A DNA stretch of 64,000 bases, taken from contig NC_060114.1 in NCBI RefSeq assembly GCF_021155765.1, forward strand, positions 19,760,501 through 19,824,500, written 5' to 3'. Positions 30,578-64,000 of the stretch are shown piece by piece (position 1 is the first letter of the stretch; every line of letters begins with the position of its first letter). This stretch comes from Diprion similis. Taxonomy: Eukaryota > Arthropoda > Insecta > Hymenoptera > Diprionidae. The position numbers and the translations under genes are program-made. The notes below the pieces were generated by a model. That model worked only from the letters and a program-made list of their open reading frames with translations. It had not been told where the DNA came from and did not search any database.

Positions 30578-33500
30578 ATTGATGAAAAAGTGGTCAGGAA
30601 ATGCCCGTGATTTTCTGTACCCATTAACCACTAACAGTTACATTCTCCTGCCGGTTGGTCTCCACCCCGCGGAACGAACTGAGAGCAAAACCCCATGATT
30701 CTTCTCATTTCCGGTCTTCGGTTGACCGCTAATGCTCACGTGTTCGCGGGCCCATTAGGAGCATCCCAAGTTCTGGGACGGAGTGATCGCTTGATGAGAA
30801 CAACCGGCGTTTCCTGAACGGAGTTTGTCAAGACGTGGCTGCATCTTGAGATCGGAGTTTGGCGCGTTTGGTCCGACAGTTTGGAGTCTCAGTGGGTACG
30901 AAAATAAAGGCACTTAAGCCGGTACAGGGATGAAGTGGAAGCCTGTGAAGAGGATGGAGGTACACGTTAGTAGTTTTTCACGAGAATACTGCCTTCTGTA
31001 AAGAGTCCAGTACTCGAGTTTCAGCATCCATTTTCTCCACGTTCGTCAAGGAGGATCCAGACCCGGTAAGAGTTCCGAGTTCCCGACGAGTAGATCCCTT
31101 TCTTCTTTCACTCGTGCATTGCCGCTACTACTCCTACTGCCGTTGATGCTAATGCTGATGCTGCTGTGTGTTTCTCAGCAGCAGGCGCGTGTTATCGATT
31201 CAAATGTGCCCCGACGAGTTTTGCCCAAGGGAGCACGTTTCGCCTGGGAAAAGTAACACCCGAAAAATACTGGGAAAAATATTTTCTTCTCCCGACTCTG
31301 CTCCAGCGTTTTGCCCCACTCCTTCGTCAGCCCCGGAGCTTCTCACCCCGGACTTCGCCCTCACCTTCATCTTCAAGTTTTACATTCTACATCGGGAGGG
31401 GCAAATATACCAGGTACCTGTTCTAGCATCAATATTTACGGGTTTTTCCTCGGGGTAGGGAAGAGCCGCGACGATGGGTTTGCGACCGAGTATCTTGTTG
31501 CACGAATACCGAATCAATAGTTTCTCTGTATGGGTTGGTATGGTTGGGAACGTCTGTTTCGGAACCGTCTTTTTTTTACGTGTTTCCTCCTCCTCCCTCC
31601 GAGCTCAGAAAAGTAGTCGAGGTATTCCTCTCTCCATTCTTATCCACAAGAAAAGACCTACTTCAAACCCAATACGATAGAGAATCCAATCGATAGAGAG
31701 CGTCTTAGAACATCCCTTGGGACCTCGTGGCGATCCTCTCAGTTTGTTTTTCTCCGGATTAAAAAAACTCCCCCGTCTAAGCCCGCGTCACTTTCGGACA
31801 TTGGAGTCTACGACCCGACCTCAGGACCACTCTATTCGATGTAGAAGCAGGTCGACACACCCTCCGGAGCAGAGTGTGCAGTTCCAGAAAATATCCCACT
31901 CGTTGCGGGTGTTAAAAAACCGAAGATTAAACTGTCTAAGAATCCCTCAAGACCGAGCCCGAGTCACATGCTCATAACGCCGCCACGACCGTCGGCGTCG
32001 CCGACAGAAATCGATAGATGCCTCGTGACAATTTATGGTACCGTCGGCTTTTCAAGATATGAAACTACGACTCCACGGAGCCCAGTGGAGAGAGCTTTCT
32101 CAGCAAGAAACACGCGCCGCGCTCCTCCTCGAGCGGATTAATTCAACGGGGTAAGAGAAGCGTCAGCTGTGCCCCTTGACTAGGGCAACCGACCACGCAC
32201 TACTGCCCGACTAACCCAACATCTCCGACCATCCCCTGGATCAGACTGGAGGGGGAAATTCGCCGATCGACTCTGCGCTGTGCTTTCGTTTCTCGCAGTA
32301 CACTCGCTCTGCTTGGCGAGCTTTATGTTCAGAGCTTCGCCGCGGGTTGCGCAGGGGGTTTGATGGTGCTTTCGTCAACGTGCCCGCCTCGCGACTGCTG
32401 AGCTTCGTGTTCAATCGTCCGCGAACTTTCGGAGCATTGGGGGGGGGGCTACGCAACTCTCGCCGCTCGCGCGAGGAGCTTAAACGTTCTGCGCAAAGGC
32501 CGATCACTCGGCGCCAAGCTTTTCACCCCCCTCCCCCCCCCAACCTCAACCCGCTCGGCAGCTCTACGTCGGTAACACAAACCTCAAGATATTGCGCGCG
32601 GCTCTATCCGACAGGAGCACCTAATCGAGGTGACAAGAGGCTAAATTCGTTCCGCATTTCATTTTATGAGGATAACCAGAACGACCCCCTCGATCTTTGT
32701 TCATATCCTGCCGCCACCGTAGCGTGACCTTCGATTTCTTTTGTGATGATCAAATCATTAGCCGCTGATTTTTTTTTTTTTGTACCAGCTTTAAATCGTA
32801 CTCCTTGAATCAGATTTATTTCGTGAGCTCAGGTTTGTGCGATTCTCCGACGTCTGGAACTTGTTTGGACGCATTTTTTGTACTTACAAGATTGCAAGCG
32901 GGACTAATATTCGCGGAGAGAAATTAATGAGATTAACTTTTATTGTCACTACCGCTTGAAGAAATTTTTCGATAATTATTAAATACTTTGTCAACTTGCG
33001 TCAATGTTTTATAACAGTTTTAGGCTACGCAAATAAAATTCGAAAGTCTTTGTTTTCTATTTAAACCGTTTCAGATGATTTCCTACAACCGCTGCGAGAC
33101 GGACAAAAATATTTTCATGGGTATTTTTAACGTCGCATTTATGCGTCACGATTTGTGCTGATGAAATGCTGTCTCGAAAATAGCTAAATGAAATTTTTAT
33201 TAATACCTCGAATTGTACGCAGCGTACAATTGGGTCGATTGTAGGCCAGAAAGTAGGTATAATAACAAGGATTACTTCCGGCCGAGGTGGAGCGTGAATA
33301 TTGGACAAAGTTTTATTCGGCTTAACAACTATTATCTTATCATTAAACAAATCATTGAACCGCACAGTTTCGTGCGCTTGCCAATGGCACGATCCCCGGC
33401 AACTATTGTGCGCGGCACGAATTGAATAACTTTGTGTTTTCAAGTGCGTATATACGATATATTAAATCAAAAGTAATGTAATTTTAGAAGGGGCATTTAA

Positions 33501-38216: not shown

Positions 38217-41125
38217 ATGATTGGTCTCTGGATACTGGCTTCGTTGCTTGGCGGCATCGCTCTTGCTCAGGAGGCTTACGACTACAAGGGATGTTTCCGG
38301 AACCTGGAGGCCAATCTGGACTTTCCAGTACTGGCAGTCAGTCATCCAAGCTCGCCATCCGAATGTATTCGGGAATGCGGTTCCCGATATTACATGTGAG
38401 TTGAAAACCAGGGTGGTTGTAGTAGGGTGGAAGCCCAGGACATCTGCAGACATCAAGGACAGTTCGTGGTCCGAATGAGGACTAGAAGCTTGAGGAAATC
38501 GTCTGTGAATAAATTCGATGAATCATACTCACAAGAATGTTACTCATACAGGTTTGCAGGTCTGATGAACGACCAGCAATGCTACTGTGGCAGCGAATAC
38601 GGAAGAAATGGTCTTTCATCAGGGTGCACCGTCTATTGTGTAGCTGAGCCCACTGCCCTGTGCGGTTCACTTGACTCTGTAAGCGTTTACAGCACTGGGC
38701 AAAAAGGTGACAAAAAACTGTTAGGGACTTGGTAAAAAAGTATTCGTACATACTTAGTACGCTTTGTATAAAAAAATGTTGTAGAAGACTATAATTCGAA
38801 CAGTTGTTGATGTTGAGTACGCATAGTAGTCAGTAACATTGAGTTATAAACTAGGACCAGGGTAGATTAGCCATTTGTGGTTACGGTATAATCCGTGGCT
38901 CTTTGATCACGCAATTCAAGGTTTAAATCCGACTGTGAACAAGTTATGGACAGAACTTGCAATACTTGGTGTTCTTCATTTTCAAAAATTGAGTGTTTGC
39001 ATAGATCGAAGCACCTCTGTACTTCTCTTTTCTTAAACATAATCTCCGAATACTGGATCAAACGATGACGAAACTCATGACATCTGTCCTATTTGAATAA
39101 TTCCATCAATCATGAGTTCAGTAATATTTTTTTTACAAACTTTATCTCGCTTGGGTGTATTTTAAGCAACTCCGATGATGACCTTTCGCGTAAATTGTTC
39201 TGCACAGGTCCAAGTCCACCAAGGCACATCCAACTCATCCGCAACGAGCCGGGAGCGCTTCAGATAACCTGGGAGCCCCCGAACATCCCGAATGGTAAGC
39301 TGGTAGCTTACAACCTGCGAGCAGTCTCTTTGCAGACGTACGCCTCCGGTCCCCTGCCCCCCCTTGAAAGCCAGGTGGAGGGCGGTTTCGCGAACATGAC
39401 GACAATGCGGGGTCTGCAGCCTGGCACGAAGTACAACGTGTCTATAGTTGCGGTGAACACTCACGGTAGTGGATCGGCGGCTTACTCCACAAACTGGACG
39501 CTAATCGGCCCTCCGGACAAGCCGGGCACCCCGGTGATCATCAACAAGACAAACACTACGGTCACCGTTATGCTAGCCAAGGGTTCGAGCGGATCGGGCC
39601 CGGTGAGTCGGTACCAAGTGGTCGTCGTCAGGGCAGGAACGATCCCACCGACGGACAGTGACGAGACTTATCCAGGCTACGAAGAGTCCAGGGAGGAGGG
39701 CTTGGGCTACTACGTCGCCGGGCAGTTCGAAGCCGGTGACTACGAACGGTACAAGAACTTCACCGTCGGGGACGGCAGGAGGAATGGTCGCTTCTACAAT
39801 GCACCGTTGGACATGCGATCTTCGATGCCGCAGATCGGGCTGGTTGTGACGTCTGAGATCGGGGACGAGAAGAAGTACAGCTTTTCGGAGTTGACCAATG
39901 CCGTTCCGGTGAGCCTGAAAGCCCCCAAGCCCAGAGGTTCCAGCGTGACTGTGGTCGTCCTCTATGTGGCCATCGTCCTCCTGGGGGTCCTGCTCCTCGC
40001 TTCCATCCTGACCTACGTCATCCTGCGGCGGCGGCACGCCAGGAGCCGGGCCAAGCACTCGTCCGAACAACAGGAGCTCACGCTTCAGGGGCCTATTTGT
40101 GAGGTGGACAATATGGCGTACGTGCCTGAGGATGTGCCCGAGCGGAAGAACCACTATCAGGACTTGAAGAGCAAGGTGTGGAGCATACCGAAGAACTTTC
40201 TGGTCATCGACGCGGCCGTTGTTCGCCGTGGACGATTTGGGTCCGTCCATATGGGTACGGTGCAGATAAACGGTGCCCCGAAGACCGCCACGGTTCACAC
40301 CATAGCTGACGGCCTCCTCAGGGCCTCGGAGAAGAAGGCGATGCTGAGGGAACTCGACGTTTGCATAAGGGTGGGAAGCCACATCAATTTGGCGGGACTT
40401 ATCGGCACCTGTGAGACTCCTGATTCGCTCTACGTCGTCATCGAGATGCCGCCGCAGACCCTGAAGAACCGATTGCTTGCCGCGAGGTCCGGTGATCCTC
40501 TACCTCCTAACCAGATACTCTCCGTCGGTGTGTCCGTCGCCTCCGCGTTGCTTCACCTACAGAATCACAAGATCGTTCACACCTGTCTCTGTGCCAGGAG
40601 CGTCGGCCTCGAAAGCGACGGAACCCCGAAGCTGATGGGACACGGGATAGCGAAGTATGCTCTTGAGGACATCAAGTACATCCGGTGGACGGCCCTAGAG
40701 CTCCTGAACAACGAGAAGAAGCACCAAGAGGGCGTCGTCTGGGCCTTCGGAGTCCTTTTGTGGGAGATATTCAGCATGGGGGGGACACCTTACGCGCATT
40801 TGGTCGGTGATGACGAGGTCGAGAATGCCATCAGGCGACACGTCAGGCTACCTCAGCTCAGGGACATGCCGGATCCATTTTACGAAGTGATGCTGTCCTG
40901 CTGGAGCGCCAATCGGGACGAAAGACCGACGTTCGAGGAACTCGTCAGAATTGTAAGATCATTTTTTGCTTTTTTTAAGCGCGGGTGCATTCGGTGGAAA
41001 GTCAAATTCGAAAAGTTGACTGTTTCTGTAATTCGTCTTTTAAACTTCACTTCCAGGACACCCTAAGCGTCTGCCCGATCACATCTGTTACGGAACCTTA
41101 CATCCCGGAATTGGAGCTGAATTAG
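38217..41125 (+). CDS. Wsck: Wsck-type receptor with WSC domain and inactive tyrosine-kinase domain
   Basis: Single-pass cell-surface protein of 715 aa. Exons are 38,217-38,395, 38,552-38,706, 39,208-40,952 and 41,057-41,125, with phases 2, 1, 0. A signal peptide (MIGLWILASLLGGIALAQ) precedes a WSC domain (YKGCFRN, SECIRECGSRYY, QQCYCGSEYG, CGSLDSVSVY). Two FN3-like domains follow (WEPPNIPNGKLVAYNLRAV; PGTPVIINKT). One membrane helix lies at about 357-380 with an RRRH stop-transfer. A kinase-like domain spans about 433-692. Its catalytic residues are gone: the VAIK lysine is His475, HRD reads HTC (569-571) and DFG reads GHG (589-591). The kinase fold is otherwise well kept (WTALELL, WAFGVLLWEIFSMG, CWSANRDERPTFEEL). 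The order of domains is that of Drosophila Wsck, described as a putative inactive kinase. The last exon is short (DTLSVC to ELELN). Confidence 0.93.
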
Positions 41126-42334: not shown

Positions 42335-44533
42335 CTACGTCACATTTGGCGATGAAACTTTGCTAGAATGAGAATGAGTCGGCCTTGGAGGTCTAAAAGT
42401 TCTGTTACTCGACCTCGGTGGGCACAAGAGTTGCTTGTAAGCTTCTCTATAAAGTCTGTTCGTGCCGGCGTAAATGAAGGGGTTGATGACAGATGAAGCC
42501 CACGATAGTATGGAGGCTATCACGTTGAAGACCGGCATCTCCATGTTCTCGTCGACGACGTTGGCGACCATCAGCGGCATGAAGCACAGCAAAAAGCAGA
42601 GGAATATCGTCAGCATCAGTCGCGTCACCCGCGAGTCTTCCTTGCGCTGAAAACCACCCCGTTTACCACCGGAATGGGCTTGCAATTTTTTCAAGCTCTG
42701 ACGCACCCGCCAGTAAATGCAAAGATAGGAGACGATTATCACCAGGCACGGTATCGCGAAACCGATCACGAACAGCAACTTCTTCGGACTTCGGCCGTCC
42801 TTCTTCAGTATCGTGCATGAAAATGTCTTCTCATCCAAACCGAGTGTTCCCCATTTATCCAGCGCCGATGGTATCAGGATACTGAAGCTTACCACCCATA
42901 TGCCGATCAGCATCATCGTTATTCCTCGGTCTGTGTAGATCTCCGGGTAAATGTCTGGCCTCGAAATCAACAGGTATCTAAAGAGGATGACGACGGAGAT
43001 TTAGTTACGTGAACCAACCTCAGGGTTGAATGCACGAGTCCCGCTTACCTGTTGATCGTTATGGCTACCATGCTGAGCAGCGAAACTGCCACGTTTCCGT
43101 AGAAGAATATTGGGAATAATCTGCACATCACTCCACCGAGAATCCAGTTCAATTCGATGTAGCGACTCGCGGTGACGGGCATATTGATCGCGGAAAATAT
43201 CAGATCCGAAATACTCAGACTGATTACGAATGCGGTGGTGGCGTGTTTCCTTATCCTTGGATATTTGAGGAGAGCTATCGCCGTCATCAAGTTTCCTGAA
43301 AATTTGAAAACCAAAAGATCAGTTTGCGGATGGAACAAGAGCAAAGGATCATCGCTAATAACCTATTTCCTGCAATATTGAAATAGTCGCGGGAAATTAT
43401 TACGTTGATGATTTTTCTGGTCCAATCTAGTCACTGAATCGATGGAGTGTCGAGATGCGGTTTATCACCAACCAGTGTCCATTACTTATCTTTATAAGGA
43501 ATAAGAGAAACAATGATTCCGAGGCAAAAACCACGACGTTAATGAGATTCTGTTTACAAACACTTCCGGTCGCTTATGAAGGAGCGAAAGTATCACGTCT
43601 ATACCAAGAATCTCATCAATTCGACTTTACTACTCGTGGAAAATTTCTGCGTAAATTGGTTAAGTCAAACACGGTTAATCCAACAGTGACTATGATAATT
43701 ATAATTCGGATCACCGTCGACTTCTAATTTATCATTCACTTTCCAGGCTTCTCGGTAACTCTTTGCAATTCTTCTATGTATACACATTCTGCTTAAAACC
43801 TCTATTATTTATAATAATTATAATCTAAGCAATCGTCCGACTCAGAGTCATTTTCTAACCGCATTTGTGATTACCCGAGGAAAGAACCATGAGCTTGACC
43901 GTTATTGTAGCGTTGACGCAATACCTTCGACATAAATATATAATACAAGAATGGTTTCTTTTCATCGCAATTCACTATCGCAAAGGCATGCGATAAATTT
44001 TATTCGATTGATAAAATTTATTCTATTTCAAAGAAGAAAACGCTGTATATTTCTACGACGAAATAAATACAGAGATTCGAGAAAGCAAAAAACAAATATC
44101 CCTCTGAAAAATTGCAGAAAATTCGCAAAAAATGTCCAATTAATTTTTCAAAGAGGTTGACTCAATTTCCACCGAAACCTGAATTGCAAAAAAATTCATT
44201 TCGAATACCTCGTGATAATTCATCGCGAAGGTAGAGAATTCCCTCAGGAGGAAACTTTTGGTGCAAAAAAATTGGCTAAAAATTAGTTACATCGGTGCGT
44301 AGAAATTTTCATCTCAAGCACGAACCCTTCTCGAAAAAATATCGGGTATCGTGAATGAGGCCTCATTAAAAAAGGTTAAATCGAAACTATATTCCTCAAC
44401 TGATCTCACCTGTAACTCCAACGATTCCAAAAACGATGGCGCAGACAGCGGCGACGATGGTTACAGGCCTCGGAAACGTCGGATGATCGGTATAATTGCC
44501 GGTTGAATTAACCAAAAGTGATTCGCCCGCCAT
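42335..44533 (-). CDS. Class A GPCR of the Moody/Tre1 type
   Basis: Rhodopsin-like receptor of 337 aa. Exons are 44,533-44,410, 43,295-43,049 and 42,977-42,335, with phases 1 and 2. The N-terminus is short, with glycosylation sites (NST, NYT) and no signal peptide. TM1 spans the first intron (VTIVAAVCAIVFGIVGVTGN). TM2-TM7 follow with ISLSISDLIFS, GNVAVSLLSMVAITINRY, FSCTILKKDGRSPKK in loop 2, and SWASSVINPFIYAG in TM7. The usual DRY at the end of TM3 is NRY (residues 123-125), the form I know from the fly Tre1/Moody receptors. Those act in germ-cell migration and in the glial blood-brain barrier. The short C-tail (ends SSPNVT) resembles Tre1 more than the long-tailed Moody, but I cannot settle orthology by eye. 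The ligand is unknown. Confidence 0.9.
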
Positions 44534-47208: not shown

Positions 47209-50200
47209 TTAAGTGGAACACTGCCGATAACTTATGGACTTCTTATCAATTTCCTTCAAATGTTGTTCCATTTCGTTCGTCAACGCGTCGACGGCATCCA
47301 TGAACTCTGACAGTTTTCTCTCGTTCTCTTTATACACAATCTCCATACCGTCGAGGTCCTTGAACTTGGTCGAAGTGTCGGCTGTCAATTCAGACGCCCT
47401 TGCCAAAAGTAATTTTGCCTTTTCTATCTTTTCTTTACTCCTGTCGACTCGGTCACCCAGCGCATTTTTCGCTTGTCGATACTCCTGGCTCAGTTTCATC
47501 GTCTTGTTACCGACTGCTCCAGCATCCAGGACCACTTCAGCAACCTGCTTCGCAATCTCCTCGTTGATTATGTAGTCATCCTTTATCAACTGAGTCTGAA
47601 GATTCTCGAGCCTCGAGTCCAAGGCTTCGACGTTCGCGGTTAATTTGCTGGCCGTGTCCTTGGCGATATTCATTTCCTGAATAATCGTGCCCAAATTCCG
47701 TTTGGACTGAACAATATCGTCCGTTGCCTTCCTTACAGCACTGTCAGCATTGTCCTGAGCCGACTGAGCGTCGGTCAATAGCTTGGTTATCTTTTCAGCC
47801 TGCACTTGCTTGGCTATTGCCTCGTTCTTAGTCAGGTTGGCTCGTTCTCTCAGTTGGTTAGCCCGCCTCAAGTCATCGGCTGCTTCGGCGATGATCTTCT
47901 CGGGATTCGTCAGCGACCCAACGATCAAGGATATGTTCTGCGCAAGTTCCTTGATCTGTTCTGGGTTCGAGTGAATGTTTTTACTCAATGCCTTCTTGGC
48001 CAGGTCTCTGACCTCCGCTGGGGTCGATTGTTCCTCCGTAAGGAAATTCCACATCCTGTCGGTGACACCTGTCGAATCGGCAGACAACGCGTCCGTCTTA
48101 TTCCTCACGTACAAGGCCTGGTTGAACGCATCTTGAGCGTTCGATCTTGCTGCGGTTGCCTCTTGCTGTACTTGAGACATCTGCGATCGAAGGGAAAAAA
48201 ATTTATTGTTAATAAGATCCTTCAGAGCTTCATCGTCGCGCATAATTATCGACAATCAGTTACTTACGCTCCTCAATAGCTGCTCAGCGTCGTCCCGGTG
48301 ATTCTTGATCGCCGCTGTTTGCTTCTCGGCCAAATCCAGTGCCAAATTGACTTTAGTCACGGCTCCAGCATCACAGGACAATCCACCACAAGAACCACAT
48401 CCAGCTCCACCGCACAGTGAGCTACACTCAGTGACGCGCTCCCCGCACACTTCCAGGTTCAAATCCGGCAGCATGGATTTTATACTTGTCAGCTGGTCTC
48501 CAAGCTGAGCAATGGATTCCTTGTTTTCATTCGTGGCATCCCTGAAGCTATCAGAATTCTTACTGAGGAAATTTTCCGTGTTCGTATGGTACCGCTCAGC
48601 CTCGGCCAAGATGTTCAATGTACCGTTGGCCATTCTTTCAGCCTCCTCCGATTGTTGGGCCATTTGCACGGTGACGTTCAGAGCCCCCTGCACGTTGGCC
48701 TCTTGTAACTTCGTTGCGTCCGTCTTGAGCTGTGCAGCCTCTTCATGCAGACTGTCGGTCCTTTGCCTCATGTTCTTGAGGGCAGCGTCGGCGAGATGCA
48801 CTCGTTGGCTGACACTGTCCTGGAGGTTTTCAAGCTCGTCAAGCCTCATCTGACATGCCTGAATGTCGATTTTCAGATCCCCAGCCGAGTCCCTCAATTC
48901 CTCCAGGTCTTGTCCTCTTACGCTGGTATCGTTCACGAGAGCTTTGACTTGGTTCAACGAGTCGTCCATTTGGTCGAACTCGGACGTGTAGAATCCGGTT
49001 ATACCAACCTTTTTTATCCTCGATGCATCTGTGATTACATTGTCTGTGCGGTTCTTCAGTCCTTGCAGGGTCTCGTCCCAATTTGTGAAACATTCTCCGC
49101 AAGGGCGGCACGTAGGAGCAAAACCGAGGTAGCCTCGATCACAGTGGTCGCACTTTTCGCCCCCGATACCATCGTAGCAGACGCAAGCTCCGGTCTGTCT
49201 ATCGCACTGCGGCGTGGCTGAACCAAGGAAATTGCACTCGCAAGTCTTACATTCGATATTTGGATCCCCCCAGTGATTCCTCTGGCACTCGTTACACTGC
49301 CTCCCACCAAACCCTGGCCTGCACTCGCAGGTGCCATCGTACTCGTTACATTTGTCCGAAACACTTCCAATTGCGTCGCATTTGCAGGGGTCGCAGCCTT
49401 CTCCGCTTGCAAGTCGCCAATGGTTCTCTTCGCAGCGGTCACAGAACTGACTCATGACGTGAGGGAGACATGGACACTGCCCCGATCGGTGATTGCAAGC
49501 GCCAACGCTCTGATCTGTACCAAGCACGTTGCAATCGCAGAATTTGCAATCCTTTTCCAAGGCGTCGCCGTAATATCCCGGCTTGCAGATTTGGCAGTGT
49601 GAGCCAGCCGTGTCATACAAACACTGGAGGCACTCTCCGGTCTTCGGATTGCAATTGCCCGGTCGAGCCGGGTCAGTGTTATTGCTACACTCACATGGCG
49701 TGCAACTGCCACCAGGAACATCCGGGTTCCCAAAGTAATTATCGGCACAGGTTTCACATCTTGGACCGGCATACCCTTCGTAGCACTCGCAGACTACGTC
49801 TTGAGTTATGGAATCCAGTGAGCAACTGTCGGCATACGAATGACCCGATGCTATGGCGCCCGGACAAGGACACTGCCTGCAAGGGATGTCGACGCCGATA
49901 CGTGGGTCACCGTAGAATGTTGCTATGCACATGTCACAGTTGTGGCCCGTCGTTGAGTCCTGGCAGTTTATGCAAGCTCCGGTCTTCGAGTCGCAGCTGT
50001 CGGCATGACCGTTGCACTCGCATCGTCTGCAGTGTGGGAAGTTCCAAAAGCCCGGTTGACACAGGCCGCACGTTCTGGAGTACGTGTTCGGGTGACAAGT
50101 GCAACGTCCCGTCTCAACGTTGCAGAAGTTGTCCAAGGCTCCCACGGCGTCACAGTCGCACGGTTTACATCCTTCTGGTCCAAAATTGTAGGTTCCAGGT

Positions 50201-53200
50201 GCGCAACTGTCGCATCGACGACCGACCACGTTTGTTTTGCAAGAACACCTTCCTCCCAATGGATTACAAAGTAGACTGTGTGATCCAGTCGGGTTACATT
50301 CACATGCTGGAGAAAGTGCACACGATTAATCATCAACTCTGACGTTCGGTTCTAGAGTTCTTTACTGAGTACTTACCACGAGCACCATCGAACACATACG
50401 TCCCAATGATGTAGTTATATTTTTTGCAGATATCTGTAGCCTGTTGGCCTTTATCATACAAGTCGTAAAACACATCGCCACAACGGTAAGCTTCGTACTC
50501 CTGAAGGCGCATTTCCGCAGGTGGAGATCCATTGAAGATCGGTAGGTTCTCTGGTCTAGGGATCAACACGATCTGAAAATGGACAAATCATCCCTGGTTC
50601 AAACATCAGCACAGAACAACCTTCAATAGAAAGAAATTCAAAGTTTCAGTACCGAATCAATTAGGATAGAAGCCGAAGGTGTTGGGTAACGCTGATCGTA
50701 CGCGTCGAACGTCAAATGCACAGTGTATCTTTTTCCTGATTCCAAACAGATGTTTCTAATTGCAACGGCACTGTGTCTATCAGGATAGAGCTGCATTGTG
50801 ACACGGTCGTCAGAAGGCTGCCAATCTCTACAGGGTCCATCGGGGTCGACTGGTCCGTCCCTTTCGATAAAGATCTGCACTTCCTGCCAGGGTCCTGCGA
50901 TCTCAGGTTCATACCGCACGACTATGTCGTACTCCATGGTTTTCACGATGTCGTCGATAATGAAGGTCAAGTTTGAGAGTTCGTAAGCTCTGATGAATCC
51001 ACTGCCAGTCCACGTAGTGTTTCTCCCGTCACGGTATGGCTCTCTGATCACAATCTGACAGTTCTGTAAACAACGTGTCGTTACTAGAAAAATTGTCATC
51101 ACTCGCAACGTCTTTCACATAAAAAGAAGTAGAGATCCTTACGCTGGTTGCTCGACTGTTCTCCCCTTCATAAACGAGGAGATCCAAGGAACCAGTGTAG
51201 TAACTTTGCTCCGGTTCATTGCAGGTTCGCCCACCTACGTTATGCCTGCACCGGCACTGGCCTGTCACGACATCACAGAAATTGTCATATGCTCCACCGA
51301 GGTCACAGTCGCATGGCTTACAGCCATCTTGTTCCTCGGAAAGACCCCAATATTCTGGCAGACATTGACTGCAATCACGTGCGGTTACGTAACGCTTGCA
51401 GGTGCATTCACCCGTCAGCATGTTGCACCCTTGATTACCGATCGTTCCGACAGTGTTGCAGGTACACGCTGAGAAAGAGGGCAAAGTCGCGGTTAGAACG
51501 ATGGTCTGCGCTTTTGATTGTCAGAGGGTATTGAGAATCTCACCTTGACATCCGTCTGGATTGTTAAAGTCGAATTTCCAGAATCCATTCTTACACCTGT
51601 CGCACCGTCTGCCTTCAACGTTGGCCTTGCAGTGACAGCGGCCAGATTCATCTCCACTTAACTCGTCAGTGCGTGAGTCGCAAATTCCATCGTCCAAGGA
51701 ACCGGAAGGATCGCAGTCACAGGCTACATAAAAAAATCCGTATATGTTAAATAACCAAAAAATTAACAATATCTGACGACAACTCACGTTGACAAGCTTC
51801 AGGGTCAGTCATATCTCTACTCAAATCATGGTAGAAGAATGGTTTGCATTGTTCACAATTTTGCCCACGAGTGTTATGCTGACAGTCGTCGCAAACACCA
51901 CCGGAAACTCTTCCGGATCGCTCGAAGACTGCTTCGTCGAAGTGGCAACTCGTACTGTGATTGTTACAGTTGCACATCTTGCAGGCACTGGTTTGCTTTC
52001 CAACCGCAGGTTTCCAAGGTAAATCGTTGAAGAAGTCCTCGCAGTATTCGCAGTTCAGTCCCTTAGTGTTGTGCGTACATTCACAACGGCCATGCACCAT
52101 GTCTTGTCTTTCGGGTATTCCGGGCAAAGGTAAACATCTCGAAGCATGTCCGTAGCACGAGCAAGACCCTCGAACCACCATATTTTTTATGGCGTAGTAA
52201 TACTTCTCTCTTATCTCCGAGCGGTTGTCCAACAAGTCGTCACCCAGCGTGTGCAGCCTTGTGAAGTTTATTCTCAAGTTGGTCATTTTCAAAAGATTCT
52301 GAACTTCCTTCGAGTACGGATTGTCGATTTGCAGGTTCGGTGGCAGCACTCTGTGGATTATTTCACCACCTTCTGACGGAGCAACGTTGGAATATCGCGA
52401 TTCGCACACGACATCCGTCAAGTTCCGAGATACCTTCGTCGACACACCAGGGAATGACTGCTGGCAGTTATAGGCAAAGTATTTGTACACCTGCCAGGTT
52501 TGACCGAAGTCGTAAGAACGTTCGATCAACATTGCAGCCGGTCTGAATGTCTTGAACTTTATGATTATGTGAGTGAAATGAAATTCCGCTTCCAGGTCAA
52601 GCTGCAGTGTGACGTTTTCCACACCATTTTCCGACTGCCACCAAGTCTCTGCAGCACGGAGGCTGGAATACAAGCGAGTGGTCAGAATTGGAAGAACAAT
52701 AACAGAACATTCAACTGTCCTAACGAGACAGAAATTAATCAATAATTAAAGTAACTAACTTTGGCTGATATTTGTGGACAATGTTTTCAACCCCATGCTG
52801 CTGCTTCGGGGATCTTTTGTCACAAAAGAAACATTTCTTTCTATCTTGAAGATGAGAAACTATGCAGTATCTTTCAGGTCCTCTCAAACCGCAAGTGGAC
52901 GAAGCGTGGAGTCGATTTTCTCGCCCAATTAACAAATCTCCAGTAGCCGGATAACACGAGCCAACTTCGCAGGGTTGAGGTTTCTTTGGAAACACACCTG
53001 CGAGACGGTAAAAGGTATTACTATCGTATCTTGACAATGATTAACCGTCGAATTTGGCCAAGGAAAATTTGGCATCGGGTTATAATTTGCTTACAAATAA
53101 GAAAAGAATTATTCATTAACTAAAAATTCCCAGTATATCAGCTCCACACCATATTTGTTACGTGTTCGCCGTGTCTTAATATGTTATGCCTTGAACCTGA

Positions 53201-54135
53201 ACCCGAGTTAGACACAATGTTTCGTGTTATCTGAAAAGTGTGCTGAAAATTGAACTGTTTCAGTTAGTGTACATCGATTTGAAAAATATGGCGTGTTGTT
53301 GTGCAGTGTGCTGTGATCGAGCTACCTCTGGGCCTCATCGTCGTCACCCGGCTCCAACTATACCGATTCTGGCCGAAAGCTTCTGCCGGCGACATATCTC
53401 CTCTCTGCACGGTTTCTACAACAGCTTTACAGCTCACCATTTTTCAGGGAATATTTATGGACAATTGAATGGACTGGTATGTTCCTTTTGTTTATATTTA
53501 TTTATTGGATAAAAAAAACAAAGTGATTACCTGGTCTCGATTGCACCCTGTTCGACACTCGTCGGTAGTAATTTGGGTTCGTGGAATCTTAAAAAGAAGA
53601 AAAGTTCGGTTGAAATTCATCAGATTCAGAGTAAACCGCGTCTCGCATTGAATGATGTGATCAGTGATGGCAGTTCGGGGAACCCCCTTGATCATCGAAC
53701 TCGCGAGTGAATATAAATTTCGCTTAGTTGGCAATTTTTATTTCTCTCTGTATAACTAACTAGGCAGCTTTTCAGCGAAAATAAAAATCGAAAGATAGTT
53801 CCTCAATCGCTGATGAAAGATCGCGAGGTTACGAGGTCATCGTAGTATCGACCAAGTCATTCGTGATGAAAACTCCGAATTATCAGCGTTATACATAATT
53901 AGTGCGTGGTTGAGTAGATGCACGATTATTTCTAAGCGTTATGTTTCCCAGACTTAGAATTTTATCTTCACTTTCAGTGTCCTAATTAAACGCGTAAGAA
54001 ATTCCAACGAAATTTTTCAAACAGCTACAAAACATTTGCACATCTATTTTAATTTTCATAAGCACACACTTTACCTGCTAGTATGACGAGAAATAATCCC
54101 AAAACGATGGTGATGAGCTGATTTGGCCGAATCAT
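47209..54135 (-). CDS. LanB1: Laminin subunit beta, complete copy
   Basis: Beta chain of the basement-membrane laminin heterotrimer. Exons are 54,135-54,075, 52,997-52,760, 52,662-51,788, 51,723-51,544, 51,468-51,143, 51,063-50,653, 50,572-50,377, 50,306-48,268 and 48,180-47,209. Together they encode 1765 aa, against 1786-1788 in human LAMB1 and fly LanB1. A signal peptide ([20 protein letters not shown]) precedes the LN polymerisation domain ([30 protein letters not shown]). LE repeats run to about residue 545 ([20 protein letters not shown]). The beta-type domain IV lies at about 545-765 and further LE repeats extend to about 1180. Two coiled-coil regions follow, interrupted by the beta-specific cysteine-rich alpha loop ([14 protein letters not shown], about 1384-1411). 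The chain ends QCST, whose cysteine links to gamma. All exon phases agree. A related gene lies upstream on the same strand. Confidence 0.97.
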
Positions 54136-54942
54136 CGTGGGGAGTTGATTTTTTTTTTGTTTTTTTCTTTTATCAACACTCAAGCACTGCTTGCCTTCGT
54201 TAGCAAACTACTGTCCCCATTTATCTGTTCCGCTATAACCAGGGTAAGAAAATATGTGACAATCAGTAATCATTTAGAAACTTATCTCCCCTGTTCTTGA
54301 CGCTTCGCGAGATGCAAAAAAAAAAAATGAATAAATCAACTGTCAGCACTTGGTCGGTGTACCGAAGCGATAAGAAATTTGCTGAACACTATTTTTAAAT
54401 TGCAATTCTTTGTAATGGTTTACGATTCCTGCCGATGGTTAACTCTGAATTAACTTTAAAAACCCACATTACTGCATGATTCTCAATATTAACTATCGAA
54501 TGGAATAGAAATTCGTAAAATCGAACTATCGATAAACCGAGAACTCTTAAACGCGTACCGATTTCTGTAACGAGATTTTCATCAAGTGTTAGTCTCAAAT
54601 AGCGACATGTGCACACTACTTATGTGTCACAGAAAAAAAAAAAATCTGTAATCGATACAGTCATTAATGGAAATAAGAGACGAGTAAAATTTTTCAAATC
54701 GCGGTGTTTCACACGGTAAATAATCATGCTTTGAGCAACAAAAAATTGGCAATTCGTAGCGATAAAACCAGGCTGATAATAATAATTGTCACAGGAAATT
54801 TTTATCCATCCGACTCATAGTCTTCTTACATAAAGAATGAAAAAACGAGAAATCGAAACAACGTGACTGCGAATGACTCTGAAGATTCCAAAAATGGTGT
54901 TGTGCACATAGTATAAGTAAGTATAGTAGACACTGAACTCAC

Positions 54943-55071
54943 CTGGTTCGGAGACGATATGCGGTGAAGATAATCCGAGATAATCGGGCAGCCTTTTGGG
55001 CCCAGCGTCGGGGAATCTGGGTAAACTATATTTCTGCGGCACGGATGGGCCAGGCAGAAGGATGTCGCACT
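54943..55071 (-). promoter_or_regulatory. Candidate transcription start and 5' UTR exon of the complete laminin gene
   Basis: On the minus strand, TCAGT at 55,073-55,069 matches the arthropod initiator. About 130 bases on, CCAG|GTGAGT at 54,943/54,942 is a strong splice donor. No ATG lies between them. The exon would splice to an unassigned acceptor just before the laminin ATG at 54,135. The stretch also reads open in one frame (ending HIVSEPG), with a pyrimidine-rich tract before the TCAG, so an internal coding exon of another gene is the alternative. Confidence 0.35.
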
Positions 55072-58000
55072 GAATACCGAGGAAAGAAAAACTCCGGGAT
55101 CAGCAGCAGAACTCGAAATACACGGTCAAGGGACGGAGGCTCCGACACTGCCCGAGCGAATACCTCCAGAAGCGATTCGCTTCTGCCGAGTGAGCTGCAG
55201 CCAGCATTGCCTCCGTTGAGGGGGCTGAGGGGACTGGATGAGGCTTAAAATCTCCAGCGGGGAAAGTTACCGGGAGTTTATGCCAGCCATCGGGCACCGG
55301 TTAAATTGCTCGGTTATATTTCCACCCGCGCCTTTTTCGTCTACGTCTCCGCTTCGCGCTTCAGTTCAAAGTTCTGTGATTATTTGGTAGGTAAATCAAT
55401 TGCTTGTTCGATTAAATGTCTCCTTTTGAGACTGTGGAAACTATTCACGGCCGAGTTTTTTTTTTTTGCAGCTGTCTATATCTTTTGTGCTTAACATTTT
55501 TACTTTAAAATGAAAATATTGCCCTTAGTTGAGTAACTAAACACTTTTTCGACGATTTTAAGATGTTTTGGGCGTGTTTCAGGAATAGAGTGTTTTTTTT
55601 CTTCAAAATTTGCGATTTTCTAGCGATGTGAGAATTATTCTAGAAAATAAATTTTATCCCTGTTTTATACACTTGACAATTACTTAATATGCAGCATATC
55701 TTGGGAAATTGTAAGCAGCAAAAATCAAGGCTGTACACTATAGTGTGCAAAAAAGTGAATGAGTTAATTGAACGAATTGCGGATAAAGAAATGAAAATTG
55801 AATGCAACATTTCAAGAAATTCATAAAAAGTTACTCTGATGTGCAATTTGCCGTTTTATGTTTGAAAAAATTGACAAGGATTGAAAAATATTCTCATTAA
55901 AATGAACTTTAAAATTGCAGCGACCTCTAAAAAACGAAAAAAATATAAGAATGAAAAGTAACTTGATTACTGTAATAAGAGCAGAAGTTACAGCCAGTTT
56001 CTGAATTAATCTATCCCAACTGATTTTAATTCTTTCATGAAGATCACGAAAATTTCGATCTGGATCGGTTACACCCAAAATCCAGTACTTTTTCAAGTTT
56101 CCGGATTAATCTTCATCTAGTTTGAATTTCGATAGAAAAAAATTTTTCCCGCGAACGAGGCAAAGAATGACAAACAAAACTGATCAACGTGTCTTTGTTG
56201 TTAGTCGACTGTGAAAATACGATCAATATTGTTTCCTCACGGATGATTGACGGTGCGTAAAGATGCGTGGAAGAGCGTAGAATGAAATCATCGACATATT
56301 AGAACTCGTGACATTTTTGTAATCCGTTTTTTTTTTATTTCTCTGTCCTACAAAAATGTAAAATTTCAAAATTCAAGATCCAAAATGTGAGGGATCGCGA
56401 CTTTCCGATCCAGCTTGCGCTATGCCTCAGTCTCATAAGTTGTCTATTGCCATGGTGTCACGACCGAGAACTTAGCTTCTTCCTCGGTAACTTCTCTTGC
56501 TTCTCCCAATCTTTCTTTCCACTACTCTGACTCTTGAGAGGCTGGCTAGCCGTCGACCACCAACATGTCGGCGCACTCGACTCGACGCGTGTGTGAGAAT
56601 CGTTCGCTCTTACGTACCTACACAGGGTACAGTCCCGCCCGCGATTCAAACGCGTTCCAGAACAGAGCGAAGGCGTTAAGGCGCGCTCGGGACTTCGAGG
56701 ATGCGCGCCTTTAATGTGGAGAAAAATTGGAGACGAGAGAAGCGAGAGAGTCAGTGAATAATTTTGTGATAAATCGTTTGAATCCTTCACAAGTTTGTTG
56801 GATCATAATTTTCATTCGGATTGAATCCATCGGCGATTATTTCTGCGAATTACGATGTAAAGCGTGCAGAGATTCGCCTCAAAAGTATAACAGTTTTGTT
56901 TTATCGCAGGCGAGAACGAGAAATCAGAAATATATATATGAACTTTATCGCCCCTTATTCACAGAGGAAACTGTGTACTACTTTGGATGAATGATTCGAC
57001 TTAGTTAAAGTCAAGTCTATACGTTCCGTGCCCCGCGTACGCTAAGAACGTGTAAAAAAGCGTAGGATCTAAATTTAGAGAACTCGGCTTATTATATCCT
57101 ACTGCAGGCTTCTCGCGAGTGGAATGATTTTTCGAATATGCAGTTGCGTCTGGCGGCTTATTCAAAGATCTAAGACCGTAAACGCGAGTCGAGCAAGCTA
57201 CTGGTTCTCTAATTCTTCTCAATCACGGCATTCGATTTTGCAAAAAAAGAAAGAAAAAACTGAGGTGTAAATCTAAGTAGCGATAAAAAAAGATGGCTAC
57301 GTTTACCGAGGGTTCGAGGCAGGTGCCAAATATGAAAACGATAGTCGAGGCAACGTGGGGTGAATTTCAACGCCTCGCGATACGTGCCGCAGGTGTTTCG
57401 ATTTCGTTCTCCATCGATGAAATGTCCAGAACTAAATAATCCGATAATGAATTATATTTTCCCATTTTTTTTTCTCAGTCGCAAGTATTTTTCAACACAC
57501 AAAGAAGCGAGCGTCTAGTTAGAGCAATGAACTATTTCGTCAACGTGATCTCATGCTCCGTTCCGTGACCTTTATTTTTATTTTACATTTTGTCATTTTT
57601 ATTCTATCACACATGTATTCCATGCCGGGCAGCGAGCTTATCAATCGTTGTATACGAAAATAGACGCTGGATTCACCTACGAAACTCCAAGTTTGACTCA
57701 TTTTTCCTATTCTAGGATGAAGATTTACACGATATTTTGGTGGAGAAAAAATCTGAGAAGCTGAAATCGGCCGAATGTACGTTATAAATGAGCGACATTC
57801 ATTCGAAACTGTTATACATACTGAATTACTTTCATTTCCTCGAAATCATATCGAAGTCTCTCTTATCGCCGCAGTTGTTGCAATGCTTCTGCAGATAACT
57901 CACACTCTTATCGACTTCTGTAGTGCGCGAGATGATGATGCATTCAAGAGAAGAAATATTCGAATGTAACAACGGTTTAAAAGCTGAACTTCAATTGGAA

Positions 58001-59404
58001 TTAAAAAAATTCAGTACGTCAAGTCTTTGTACGCACCAGACAGATATTTCTTTCGACGAGAAGCAGCGATGGAAAAAACTTGCAGCTGCTAAGTGGGTTC
58101 AAATATATATTTTCACGTATTCTCATTTCGTTTAACCTACAAAATTAGTGTAATTAAATTCTCTCTGCTAAGGAAGGTATCCCAGGTTGATATTTCCGAT
58201 TTGATTTCTTTTGTAATATGTTATAGTAGACTCTAAACTAAGCCAAACATATTTTTTTTTATCTGCCATTAAACACTTTAAGGGGGTGAAACCACCCTCT
58301 GAAGTGAAGTATGTCAACGGGGCGATTCAGCAGTTTCATCGAGAAGAACATAATATTTTTTAACCAATCTAAATGGAAAAGTTTTCTTATAACGAGAATT
58401 GAAAAATATAATTTTGTCAATAAAAAAAAACCTTACTTTGGAGGGTGGTTTCACACCCTTAAAGTATTTAATGGCAGATGAAATAAAATACGTGTCGTTT
58501 AGTTTTTAGTCTTCTATAACGTATTACAAAAGAAATCAAATCGGAGAGATCGACCTGGGATACCGTCTTTGTGAGTCAGATCGTTAATAAGTAGTTTGAA
58601 ATCGGCCTGATGGCAAGTATTTATTCATTAGATTGTAGAATAATAATTCAACTCATGGCAAAGCGTTGAAATGTGGGGAATGAATTGAAGCTGTTGTAAA
58701 GGAAGGAAGAACGCGTGGGCTGTTATCTGTGTGTAACTCCGGTTCAGATAGCCTCTAGACTGTGAGACACAAACTTCAACTAACAGGAAGTAGGCGCGCT
58801 TGGAAACCACGTGCTGTTTATTTTAAAGCAGGTTTACACTCTTCGAATTTTCGTTGCGAGTATTCGATTCCATTCTCCGCGATACAATGAATGATCAAGA
58901 CAGCCGAATTCTTCTGATTATCAATTCAACTACTTTTTATTTAACTGTCATAACAGCTCTTTTGTTACAGTAGCTGAAAAAAAGCTTGACGAATAAATAT
59001 ATTCGAGAATTATAAACGGAAGAAACTAAACTATTATATGAATACACGCGTTGCGTAAATTCTTAGATATACAAGTCTCATGATTTTTGGTTTTAGCAAT
59101 TCAAGTATTATATAATAATTATTTACAACTATCTTATAGTATAAAATATAAGGCACTTGCGAGCGTGTTCACTTTGGTTTTATTCGACATTGAATTACTC
59201 AATTTTGAAACTTTGAAATTTTCAACCTTCAGGGATCGTTCTAGCAATGTTAAAGAATATCCGTTTGGAAGTTCAAATCGCAAAGTCTTCGATTCCGGAG
59301 TCAATAACCTGCTGGATATAACGTTTGAATTAATACCTGATCTTAGGCGAAAGCTCAGTCTCTCAAACCGAAGTTATCGCGAAGTCTGATATTCTAGCCT
59401 TTGC
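55072..59404. other. Spacer between the two laminin beta genes
   Basis: About 4.3 kb. It should hold the promoter of the complete copy and the 3' UTR of the second copy. Apart from the foldback element at 58,176-58,564 I see only AT-rich sequence and a short GC-richer patch near 56,500-56,720. No exon can be supported. Confidence 0.5.
58176..58564. mobile_element. 389 bp foldback (hairpin) element
   Basis: Two arms of about 130 bp are inverted copies of each other. They start GGTATCCCAGGT and share GATTTGATTTCTTTTGTAAT, ATCTGCCATTAAA and GTGAAACCACCCTC. Identity judged by eye is about 80-85%, with ~130 bases of loop between them. The two ends are exact reverse complements over the outermost 12 bases. 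No coding sequence is present. It is best read as a foldback-type MITE; no target duplication was identified. Confidence 0.75.
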
Positions 59405-62400
59405 CTACGTCGAGCACTGAGCATAGGTCTGTGACTTGTGCTGAATGTCGTTCAAGTGTTTTTCCATTTGGCGCGTGAGGGACTCGACCTTCGACATGAG
59501 GTCAGTCAGGACTTCCTCGTTCTGTGCATAGGCTCCTTCCATTCCGTTGATGTCCTTAAATTTGGTCGTCGTGTCAGCAGCGAGCTCAGAAGCCCGTTGC
59601 AGAAGTAATTTCGACCTAGAAATTTTTCCCTGGCTCTTTTCGGCCTTGAGTCTCATCGCCTGATTCGCCACATCGAATTCTTCGACCAATTTTTCAGTCT
59701 TCATTCTCGTGTTCTCAGCCTCAACCGTGACGTCACCGATCTCTGAACCGATTTCCTTCGTCAATATGAAGTCATTTTTGACGATCTGAGTCTGAAGCTC
59801 GGTCAGACGCCTGTCCAAACCGAGAATTTCTTCAGTAGTGTTGTCAGCCTTTTCTGCAACCGCGTCGATCTCGATCAGAATATCGGTCAAATCATTCTGG
59901 GACAGGGATATGTATCGCTCGATCTCTTCTATGGCCGACTGAGCGTTTTCCGCAGCGATTTCCGCCTCCGTCAAAAAGACGACGATGTTTCCAGCCCGCG
60001 TACTCTGCGCGACAGCCGAATCCTTAGCCCTCATTGCCTCGTCTCGCAGAATTTCAGCGAGCTCCAAATCCTCCGCAGCATCCTCGAGGATCCTCTCAGA
60101 ATCCGTCAGCGAGCCGACGATGCTTGTTATGCTGTTAGCCAGGTCCTTGATCTCGTCTGGGTTCAACTTTATGTTTTTCGCCAGCACGTTTTCGGCCAAG
60201 TCTTTCACCATCGCTAGCGTCGGTTGTTCTTCGTTCAGGCTGTTGGCTATTCTGCTGTTGAGGTTTGCCAAATTTTTCGTGATTTCACTCGAGAAGTTGT
60301 AACTCTTGGATGCAGCGTTCAGCCCCAGTTGAGCAAGATGTTTCGCGGCCACAGCATCCTCCTTCATTTGCATCATCTAAACAGAAATCGATAGAAGACA
60401 TGAAAAATCAATCGAACAAACCCGAGCCAAAACTTAGAGCCTATACATGTGATTATTTTATTTCAATCATAATCAATCCGAATCAGCGGGGTGAGATTTT
60501 GAGCGTTAAGGAAAGGTTCAAACAAGCAGGTTCTACCCTACCTCTGAAGGGTTAAAGGAGGTTCTAAACAGATCCTACTTTGAGCCTAAACTTGGTAAAT
60601 CGATAAATTTTGAAAATTTTTAGCGTCGAAGTAGGATCTGATATTGCATTAAAATAGATCCCACTTTACTATCTTTGAACCCTACGTAGGAACTCATGTA
60701 CGGTTGTAATTAGGTGCTAAATTTCGACTCGGAAAGTCGAAGGAAAGTATGCGAAAACAATCTTACGTTCCTAAGCAACTGTTCGCTCTCGTCTTTGTGC
60801 TTCTTTATACCGGAAGCTCGCTGCTTGGCAAGATCCAAAGCTCTTTCTGCCTCCGTAACTGCACCGTCATCGCAGGAAAGGCCACCGCAAAAACTGCAGC
60901 CAGCACCTCCACATAGCTCGTCGCATTCGTTGACACTAGCTCCACAGATGGCCAGATTGAGGTCTGGAATCAGCTGGTTGAATTCGTCGAGTTCCCCTTT
61001 GAGTTTCTTCAGAGAATTATCGTTCTCATTAAGTTTGTCAGTGAAAGACTCTGACCGCTTGGCGAGCAAGTTTTCAGTATTCTTCTGGTATCTGTCAGCG
61101 TCCGCTAAAACGGCCGTTGAACTGCTGGCCAGCACTTCTGCCTGGTCTGATTGCGTCGCCATTTGGTGAGTTACATTCAGAGCACCGTAGACATCGGCCT
61201 CCTGCAAAACTGTAGCGTTCTCTTTGAGCTCAGTAGCAGCTTGGATTAAGCTCGCCGTTCGGTTTTTCATGTTTTGAAGAGCCACTTCACCGAGACTGAC
61301 CCGCTGACTGATGGATCCAATGTAGTTGTCGACTTCGTCGAGAATGGTGTCCGAGAACGAAACTGTATTGTTGAGCTCATTGGCAAAATCAACAAGCTCG
61401 AGAAGGTCCTCGGCTGTGACACTCGTCTTGTTGACGAGCTCTCGAACCTCCATCAGTACTTGGTCCATATTGTCAAATTCCTGACTATAAACACCGGCTG
61501 TTCCAACCTTCTGAATTTTCGATGCCGCATCTATGACGTCGTATGTTCTGTTGCTTAACCCACTCAGCGTCAGATCCCAGTTCTCAAAACATTCGCCACA
61601 CGGGGTACAGCTCGGAGCAACTCCAAGGTACCCGCGATCACAGTGGTCACACTTGACGCCTCCAATACCAGCGTGACAAATGCAGGCCCCAGTTTCTCTA
61701 TCACATTGTTGCGTGGATGATCCAATGAGGTTACAATCGCAGGGCAGACACTCGATGTTGGGATTGCCCCAGTAATTCGCCTCGCACTGGTTACACTGCC
61801 TTCCTCCAAAGCCAGAGCGACATTGGCAAGTTCCTTCAAACTCGTTACATTTTTCCGAGACGCTTCCAATCACGTCGCAATCGCACGGATCGCAGCCTTC
61901 TCCGCTGGCAATCCTCCAGTGGTTTTCCTCGCAGGTATCGCAGTACTGACCAATGACCTTAGGCAGACAGGGACATTGTCCATCGCGGTGATTGCAGGGA
62001 CCGTCGCGAAAGTTTGTGCCGAGAACGTTGCATCCGCACTCTTGGCAGTCCTGTTTCAACGCGTCACCGTAAAAACCGGGCTTGCAGATTTGGCAGTTTG
62101 GACCATCAGTGTCGTACAAACATTGGAGGCAGCGTCCGGTGTGCGGGTTGCAATTCCCTGGTTTCGACAGATCAGTGTTGTTGCTGCAGTCACAGGGCAC
62201 GCATCTTCCCGTTTGCACATCGGGACTACCGAAGTAGTTTTCAGCGCAAATGTCACACCTCGATCCGGCATATCCCTCGTAGCATTCGCACACCACGTCC
62301 AAGGTGACTGGGTCTAGAGAACACCTGTCAGCGAACGAATGACCCGAGTCCCACGTTCCCGGACAAGGACAAGGCCTGCATGGTATATCGACCCCGATTT

Positions 62401-64000
62401 GTGGGTCTCCGTAATATTTTTCGGCACATCTATCGCAGTGATGCCCGGTCGTGAAGTCCTGGCAGTTCTGGCAAGCCCCCGTTACCGAATCGCAGGTCTG
62501 GGCGTGACCGTTGCACTTGCACCGCTCGCAGTGTGGGAAGTTCCAAAAGCCAGGTTCACACTCGCCGCATGTTCTTCCATACGTGTTTGGTCTGCATTTG
62601 CATCGCCCTGTCTCAAAGTCGCAGAAATTATCCTCAGCACCGACGCTGTCACAGTCACACGGCACGCAACCAGCCGGACCAAAACCGTACGTCCCAGGAG
62701 CACAACGATCGCAACGTCGACCAACAACGTTTGGCTTGCACGGACACGATCCTCCGTATTGGTCACATAGTAGACTGTTGGATCCTGTAGGATTACACTC
62801 ACAGGCTGCAACAAACGTTCGACGGTTCAAACAGGAAAATGGATTGATAACATCTTTGCCTTACGTCCTTAACACTCACAGGGTGCTCCGTCGAAGATAT
62901 AATAACCAATGCTTTTGCGGTACTGCGCGCAAATGTCAACTTCGTTAGTTTCTCCGGTTGGGATAGCGTTGTAAAATATCTCGTCGCAATGTCGCCTCTC
63001 GAAGTCTTGTCTCCGCATTTCGCTGGGTGGAGAACCCGCGAAGAACGGAATACCTTCCACTTTGGGCATCAGGACGATCTGAAAATTATTATGCATGAAT
63101 TCCTCAAATATTTTTGCTACCGAATTCTCAAACTTGAAGCAGATAGTCAACACTTTCTTACAGAGTCAATCAGTATTGAAGCTGTCGAGCCGCCTTCACG
63201 GTCATACGAATTCTGGAATTGGAGGACGACAATGTAGTTTTTCCCTTTCTCAAGACACACCGACGGTATCGCAACAGCGCTCCGCGAGTTCACCGGAAGC
63301 TGAATATACAGTTCGTCGTCTTCCGGTTTCCAATTGGCACATGATCCTTCGGGGTCCACCTCGTCCTCTCGTTCGACAAAGATCTGCGCCTCTTCTAAAA
63401 TTCCCGGAAACTCGGACTCGTAACGTAAGACTATGTCGTATTCCATCGACTTTACTACATCGTCGATCGTGAACTCTAGCGTCGAACCTTCAAAGGCTCT
63501 TATAAAACCTGATCCTGTCCATGTACTGGGTCTACCATCACGATATGGTTCTCGGATAACGATTTGGCTTTTCTGTAAAATAAGTTCACATTCCAATCAC
63601 ACAATAAACAAACTTGGATCTGGAATAAACAACCAAACAACTGCGAAGAACTCACATTGGTTCTGCTTCGTTCTCCTTCGTAAACCAGATAATCTAGGGC
63701 AACTGTGTAATGGTTCTGCTCCGGTTCATTGCAAGTTCTGCCGTCGACGTGTGCCCTACATCTGCACTGGCCAGTTACCACGTCACACGAGTTATCATAA
63801 GCACCTCCGAGGTCACAATCGCACGGCTTGCAGCCTTCTCGGTCATCGGAGAGGCCCCAAAACTCTGGGTAGCACTGATCGCAATCGCGACCAGTTACGT
63901 ATGGCTTGCAAGTGCATTTCCCAGAGACCACGTCACACCCATGTGCATTAACCGTGCCGAGTGCGTGACAAGAGCAGGCTGTGAAAAGTTCAGAAAATGT
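59405..64000 (-). CDS. Second laminin subunit beta gene, 3' part (runs off the window)
   Basis: Paralogue of the neighbouring laminin beta gene. Five exons are visible: 63,978-63,656, 63,572-63,162, 63,078-62,880, 62,805-60,767 and 60,376-59,405. They encode about 1313 C-terminal residues; the signal peptide, LN domain and first LE repeats lie beyond the right edge. Present are late N-terminal LE repeats ([18 protein letters not shown]), domain IV ([21 protein letters not shown]), the second LE block (CDCDVIGSVSEKCNEF), and coiled coils with the alpha loop (CGGAGCSFCGGLSC). The terminus is QCST. Frame is open throughout and all cysteine-spacing landmarks remain, so it looks functional. Exon lengths are 323, 411, 199, 2039 and 972 against 326, 411, 196, 2039 and 972 in the other copy. 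Which copy is the true LanB1 orthologue is open. Confidence 0.95.
60546..60710. repeat. Small inverted repeats within a laminin intron
   Basis: CAGATCCTACTTTG at about 60,569 is mirrored by GAAGTAGGATCTG at about 60,628, with a related AGATCCCACTTTA just after. AAGGGTTAA lies at the left edge. This makes the last intron of the second laminin copy 390 bp, against 87 bp in the first. It is probably a small inserted element. Confidence 0.4.

Follow-up and report, generated by a model that had tools for sequence, protein, structure and literature searches.

A stretch of 64,000 nucleotides of Diprion similis contig C10 (19760501-19824500, hereafter the window; adding 19760500 to a window position gives the contig coordinate) contains one predicted laminin beta gene and the greater part of a second, arranged head to tail on the minus strand. 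We consider it likely that they are complete paralogous genes of the LanB1 type, formed by tandem duplication after the insect lineage had separated from vertebrates, and that both have long been kept, with products that form trimers and are divided by tissue.

Both gene models were built from open frames, splice consensus and mutual homology, and each has 10 coding exons and nine introns (Table 1). The left gene (window 47209-54135, minus strand) encodes 1784 amino acids. The right gene (window-equivalent 59405-66288, minus strand), whose exons 1-5 are outside the window on its right, encodes 1781 amino acids and is complete once that flanking sequence is added. All 18 introns have GT-AG ends, there is no internal stop in either reading frame, and the intron phases (1,1,2,1,1,0,0,1,0) are common to both genes at 9/9 introns. 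The original prediction, made from the window alone, had compared five exon pairs, and its lengths (972/972, 2039/2039, 411/411, 196/199 and 326/323 nucleotides) all recur in the gene models; the four introns it had described as alike in position and phase are so, with the phase agreement extending to all nine, and both copies are open, as it had said. From the ATG of the left gene to the stop of the right gene there are 5269 nucleotides.

The domain content of the two proteins is nearly the same. Matches to Pfam Laminin_N (left 281.9 bits, right 273.8 bits) and to the laminin IV type B family PF21199 (182.8 and 174.7 bits) were found in both, with EGF_laminin in 13 stretches of each copy, and the Pfam scan gave no match to the LG family at an expectation value (E) of <=0.001 in either protein. 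A look to the right of the window had been proposed earlier, and the 5' exons of the right gene are present there and its LN domain is intact. Both N-termini are hydrophobic as judged by eye, both proteins have a long C-terminal coil according to heptad register tests, and both carry CGEC at the start of the coil and QCST at the C-terminus; the cysteines at the two coil ends presumably serve in interchain disulphides. The best sequence match in the PDB was laminin beta-1 for both proteins (744 bits left, 733 bits right), with lower matches to netrin-4 (357/343 bits, left/right), gamma-1 (185/182) and alpha-5 (188/180). Both genes are thus predicted to encode laminin beta subunits of the LanB1 type, with the domain order of a beta chain.

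In a global alignment 1106/1779 ungapped residues are identical (62.2%), with five small indels. Identity varies along the chain: 10/46 in the signal peptide and tail, 181/237 in LN and 214/278 in LEa (about 76-77% for these two), 115/202 in domain IV, 295/405 in LEb, 120/227 in the first part of the coil, 27/40 in the knob and 134/324 (41%) in the last coil exon. The wide protein divergence that had been predicted, with the coils most affected, is therefore borne out among the long regions by the last coil exon as compared with LN. The final 1025 alignment columns contain no indels, and 590/1025 are identical.

At the nucleotide level, 0.651 of 444 fourfold sites differ, and the proportions of synonymous and nonsynonymous differences (pS and pN) are 0.719 and 0.246 overall. 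Because pN is lower than pS in 6/6 domain blocks, both copies have been constrained, which points to long maintenance under purifying selection. With pS this high, the synonymous distance (dS) is unusable as a date and shows only that the pair is old. Introns and flanking DNA have few matches: words of 7-13 bases are found in 4/9 introns, nothing at E 1 in the other 5/9, and blastn of the upstream regions gave short matches only (best E 0.023). The ratio of observed to expected CpG is 0.99 in one coding sequence and 1.07 in the other (window 1.21), values that are not informative as a proxy for expression.

Silent sites near saturation exclude both a haplotype artefact and a recent duplicate as explanations of the pair. 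An assembly artefact, with two haplotypes placed in tandem, has virtually no probability: nothing was found for it, the fourfold differences and the short intron matches are far above allelic divergence, and both genes are in one contig of 22.56 Mb. That one copy is a decaying pseudogene is extremely improbable, as nothing in the gene models speaks for it and it is contradicted by the intact frames, the splice sites of all introns and a pN well below pS. Recent gene conversion was also rejected, since fourfold divergence stays between 0.46 and 0.72 in 21/21 sliding windows; the two lowest windows (0.46 and 0.55) both fall in the last coil exon and contain only 24 and 29 sites.

A tree was built under LG+G4 from four sequences (left, right, LAMB1 and netrin-4), LAMB1 being represented by PDB 4aqs, the mouse chain (PMC4068974). 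The left and right copies form one side of the tree and LAMB1 and netrin-4 the other, with 100% ultrafast bootstrap. This grouping places the duplication after the split between insects and vertebrates, which is all that four sequences show. Over LN-LEa, left and right share 390/507 residues with each other and 314/508 and 303/506, respectively, with LAMB1. The tree path is 0.33 from left to right and 0.79 from left to LAMB1, and the ratio of about 0.42, a crude protein distance, hints at great age of the pair but cannot serve as a date, because substitution may have sped up once the genes were duplicated. The original prediction had called the tandem duplication old, and the fourfold divergence agrees with this. 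Unique changes over LN-LEa number 21 in the left copy and 32 in the right (chi-square 2.28, not significant), giving no clear sign that one copy evolves faster than the other.

The predicted coil was compared between the copies by deriving a heptad register from one and applying it to the other. Predicted core (a/d) positions are hydrophobic at 0.69-0.75 as against 0.19-0.29 elsewhere. In each of four tests 0/2000 shuffles were as good as the transferred register, a result that shared descent could produce as well as constraint, the copies being homologous; the transferred register also beats the other six registers in each test (nearest rival 0.36 vs 0.47). Because of this homology, the test was repeated in a stricter form on differing positions only, and it then holds in 3/4 cases, with hydrophobic residues at 10/18 core vs 14/84 other positions (7/5000 shuffles as good), 21/33 vs 43/164 (1/5000) and 20/36 vs 38/161 (0/5000). 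It fails for coil part 1 with the left register and right residues (7/16 vs 28/86, 1400/5000 shuffles as good). Identity is 42/58 and 64/97 at predicted a/d positions and 63/149 and 79/243 elsewhere, making the core 1.7-2 times as conserved, and where the left copy has a hydrophobic residue, the right copy has the same one at 33/41 and 50/75 positions of the core, compared with 15/31 and 21/54 elsewhere. Since the core is better kept than the rest, both copies probably still assemble into a trimer coil with the same partners. Few length changes would probably be tolerated by the LE modules and by a coil of three chains in register, leaving coil surface residues free to change; with one residue more or less, the coil would no longer be in register with its partners, so that lengths may be frozen while the sequence drifts.

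The diverged coil could alternatively reflect neofunctionalisation, in which one copy, perhaps the right, changed its partner or receptor preference through the coil and C-terminus, going beyond a division of old expression domains. The low identity of the last coil exon would fit such a change, as would the failed register test on the right copy, the net charge of coil part 2 (-6 left, -21 right) and two cysteines found in the left copy only. We regard it as doubtful, however, given that the coil core is better conserved than other positions and that the rate asymmetry over LN-LEa is not significant. There are 125 cysteines in the left protein and 123 in the right, with 123 common to both, including those of the coil-start CGEC and the last cysteine. 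One of the two left-only cysteines is in the IV-B region, at a site that is not a cysteine in the beta-2 chain of PDB 5lf2, and the other is in the coil. N-glycosylation motifs number 17 in the left copy and 15 in the right.

Potential partners for the two beta chains were sought in the genome (269 Mb, 60 contigs). The LN domain gave 13 matches, which we grouped into six genes: two beta, two alpha, one gamma and one netrin. The beta-type IV-B domain was found at two places only and the beta C-terminus at two places, in the same two genes. The best match of a gene on C4 is alpha-1. A gene on C3 matches gamma-1 best (122.9 bits, vs 96.3 for netrin-1), has Laminin_B matches close by and is predicted to be the single gamma chain gene. 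For a gene on C13, matches to Laminin_II and Laminin_B lie downstream of the LN exons, from which it is read as a putative second alpha, and a gene on C8, where an LN domain is accompanied by an NTR match at a distance of about 0.12 Mb, was read as netrin. A row of several Laminin_B (L4) matches at C8:25986966-25991243 is presumably perlecan-like. At L001 (1306-2787, plus strand) a netrin-like LN lies in an open frame in which about 100 extra, partly Thr-rich residues separate the LN match from the first LE repeat. When stray insect DNA was looked for in prokaryote genome contigs, seven stretches matched the pattern and none encodes a relative.

For a laminin to be secreted, a beta, a gamma and an alpha chain are required, one of each. 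Beta and gamma dimerise and alpha then joins, and the LN domains mediate polymerisation (PMC4068974). With two alpha, two beta and one gamma gene, four heterotrimers would be possible, each beta product pairing with the single gamma and either of the two alphas. The extra heterotrimers of the original prediction are therefore plausible from this gene set together with the conservation of the coil core, although they are deduced from sequence.

Drosophila has one beta chain, LanB1, with one gamma and two alpha partners, as the original prediction had held and as PMC4068974 describes, and the predicted set in D. similis is similar in having beta chains with one gamma and two alpha chains. The novelty that had been implied for a second insect beta is weakened, because Bombyx mori already has one with a wing role, established by mutation and by RNA interference. 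This chain, BmLanB1-w, has 1779 amino acids and one exon, is 82.7% identical to BmLanB1 and is enriched in wings, where it is needed for adhesion of the wing layers; its mutation or knockdown leads to blistered wings, and BmLanB1 and BmLanB1-w are thought to divide ancestral roles (PMC4515764). According to that paper, which also searched D. melanogaster, A. aegypti, A. mellifera and T. castaneum, only one insect beta had been identified until then. We read the single exon of BmLanB1-w as that of a retrocopy. Both cases thus have a second laminin beta chain in one insect genome, whereas the D. similis genes are in tandem, with nine introns in both and 62% identity, and do not resemble a single-exon recent duplicate of the BmLanB1-w type in that both have 10 exons and their silent sites are near saturation. 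Neighbouring laminin paralogues are already a known kind from fish, where lamb1a-lamb4, lamc1-lamc2 and lamb2/lamb2l are in tandem (PMC9504374). There, too, neighbouring paralogues are kept in many species, but they come from separate duplications, while the two D. similis copies form a group without LAMB1 in the four-sequence tree. No report of an insect tandem laminin beta pair was seen in the titles and opening abstract lines of the literature matches listed, which for several searches were the top-ranked ones, and annotated pairs may well exist in subscription journals and genome annotation databases. The D. similis pair is a sound, well-preserved new example of a known process, not a new kind of system.

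Full redundancy rarely permits long retention of duplicates. A redundant or dosage duplicate, with both copies in the same places and the same role, would agree with the like architecture and main domain set and with the similar rates of the two copies, but it is unlikely, as near-saturated silent sites in two intact genes imply long retention and the introns and upstream DNA have only short matches. In the favoured account, tandem duplication at the DNA level probably produced the two beta genes in insect ancestors that had already split from vertebrates, and both may have been kept as expression or adhesive strength was divided between tissues, as in Bombyx BmLanB1 and BmLanB1-w.

Several points weigh against this account of two complete, trimer-forming genes divided by tissue. 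The gene models, including exon 2 and the start codons, are predictions from sequence. The Pfam LAMB1-4 helical domain is below the cut-off in the left copy (19.8 bits, cut-off 26) and is not listed for the right. Because of the two left-only cysteines, the disulphides of the two copies may now differ. We used a simple heptad model of our own design, its shuffle tests have the limit given above, and one stricter test fails. Laminin_II is a weak marker, as it also matches in 4/14 prokaryote controls, and it was found once in the genome although two alpha genes were counted. The proposed division of labour between the copies is argued only from precedent. None of the differences between the copies in cysteines, charge, glycosylation or helical match proves a different function.

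Table 1 Exons of the two predicted laminin beta genes of Diprion similis and the interval between them, in window positions
Feature	Position	Strand	Length (nucleotides)	Content and basis
Left gene exon 10	47209..48180	-	972	Coiled coil, terminal Cys, stop; gene model, splice sites
Left gene exon 9	48268..50306	-	2039	LEb repeats, coil start with CGEC, motif we take to be the beta knob
Left gene exon 8	50377..50572	-	196	Gene model
Left gene exon 7	50653..51063	-	411	Laminin IV type B domain; gene model, profile match
Left gene exon 6	51143..51468	-	326	Gene model
Left gene exon 5	51544..51723	-	180	LEa; gene model
Left gene exon 4	51788..52662	-	875	Most of LN and first LE repeats
Left gene exon 3	52760..52997	-	238	LN start
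Left gene exon 2	53531..53587	-	57	N-terminal tail, diverged between copies; predicted from splice sites and phase
Left gene exon 1	54075..54135	-	61	ATG and hydrophobic signal-peptide-like start
Intergenic interval, left ATG to right stop	54136..59404	.	5269	Only short matches (best E 0.023) to the DNA upstream of the right gene
Right gene exon 10	59405..60376	-	972	Gene model
Right gene exon 9	60767..62805	-	2039	Gene model
Right gene exon 8	62880..63078	-	199	Gene model
Right gene exon 7	63162..63572	-	411	Laminin IV type B domain
Right gene exon 6	63656..63978	-	323	Gene model
Right gene exons 5-1 (outside window)	64040-64219, 64311-65182, 65262-65499, 66083-66133, 66228-66288	-	180, 872, 238, 51, 61	Window-equivalent positions

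Other genes were seen in and around the window. An open frame at 39081-41066 (plus strand) contains a fibronectin III and a tyrosine-kinase-like domain and probably encodes a receptor pseudokinase; by eye, HRD is changed to HTC and DFG to MGH, with no evident adenosine triphosphate-binding lysine. The label Wsck is not supported for this frame, since WSC domain matches are only on contig C2. Two G-protein-coupled receptor sequences were present on the minus strand, one of class C and metabotropic glutamate receptor-like (27157-30637; ANF_receptor, NCD3G, 7tm_3) and the other a rhodopsin-family fragment (42335-43000; 7tm_1). A 2-oxoacid dehydrogenase E2 subunit is represented at 21421-22035 (minus strand) by its lipoyl and E3-binding domains, and the neighbouring frame at 20921-21370 looks like a continuation of it. 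Upstream of the right laminin gene is the transmembrane region of a neurotransmitter-gated ion channel (L010 2645-3178, minus strand). Elsewhere in the genome, the odorant-receptor family 7tm_6, which to our knowledge is confined to insects, gave 103 exon-level matches, with a dense cluster of odorant-receptor exons at C12:9026152-9063571. TTAGG repeats are found at one end of C10. The sex-determination family SDP_N gave no hits in the genome, a negative that carries no weight.

If the proposed history of the laminin pair is correct, an old intron-bearing tandem pair would mean that insects diversified their beta chains on more than one occasion. More tentatively, and with somewhat less than even confidence, the lineage may have relied on two tandem beta chains for so long that its basement membranes form an obligate two-beta system, in which the two extra cysteines of the left chain could add interchain bonds. 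The pair would also be a natural experiment on the question of which residues of a beta chain may change while the three-chain coil is preserved.
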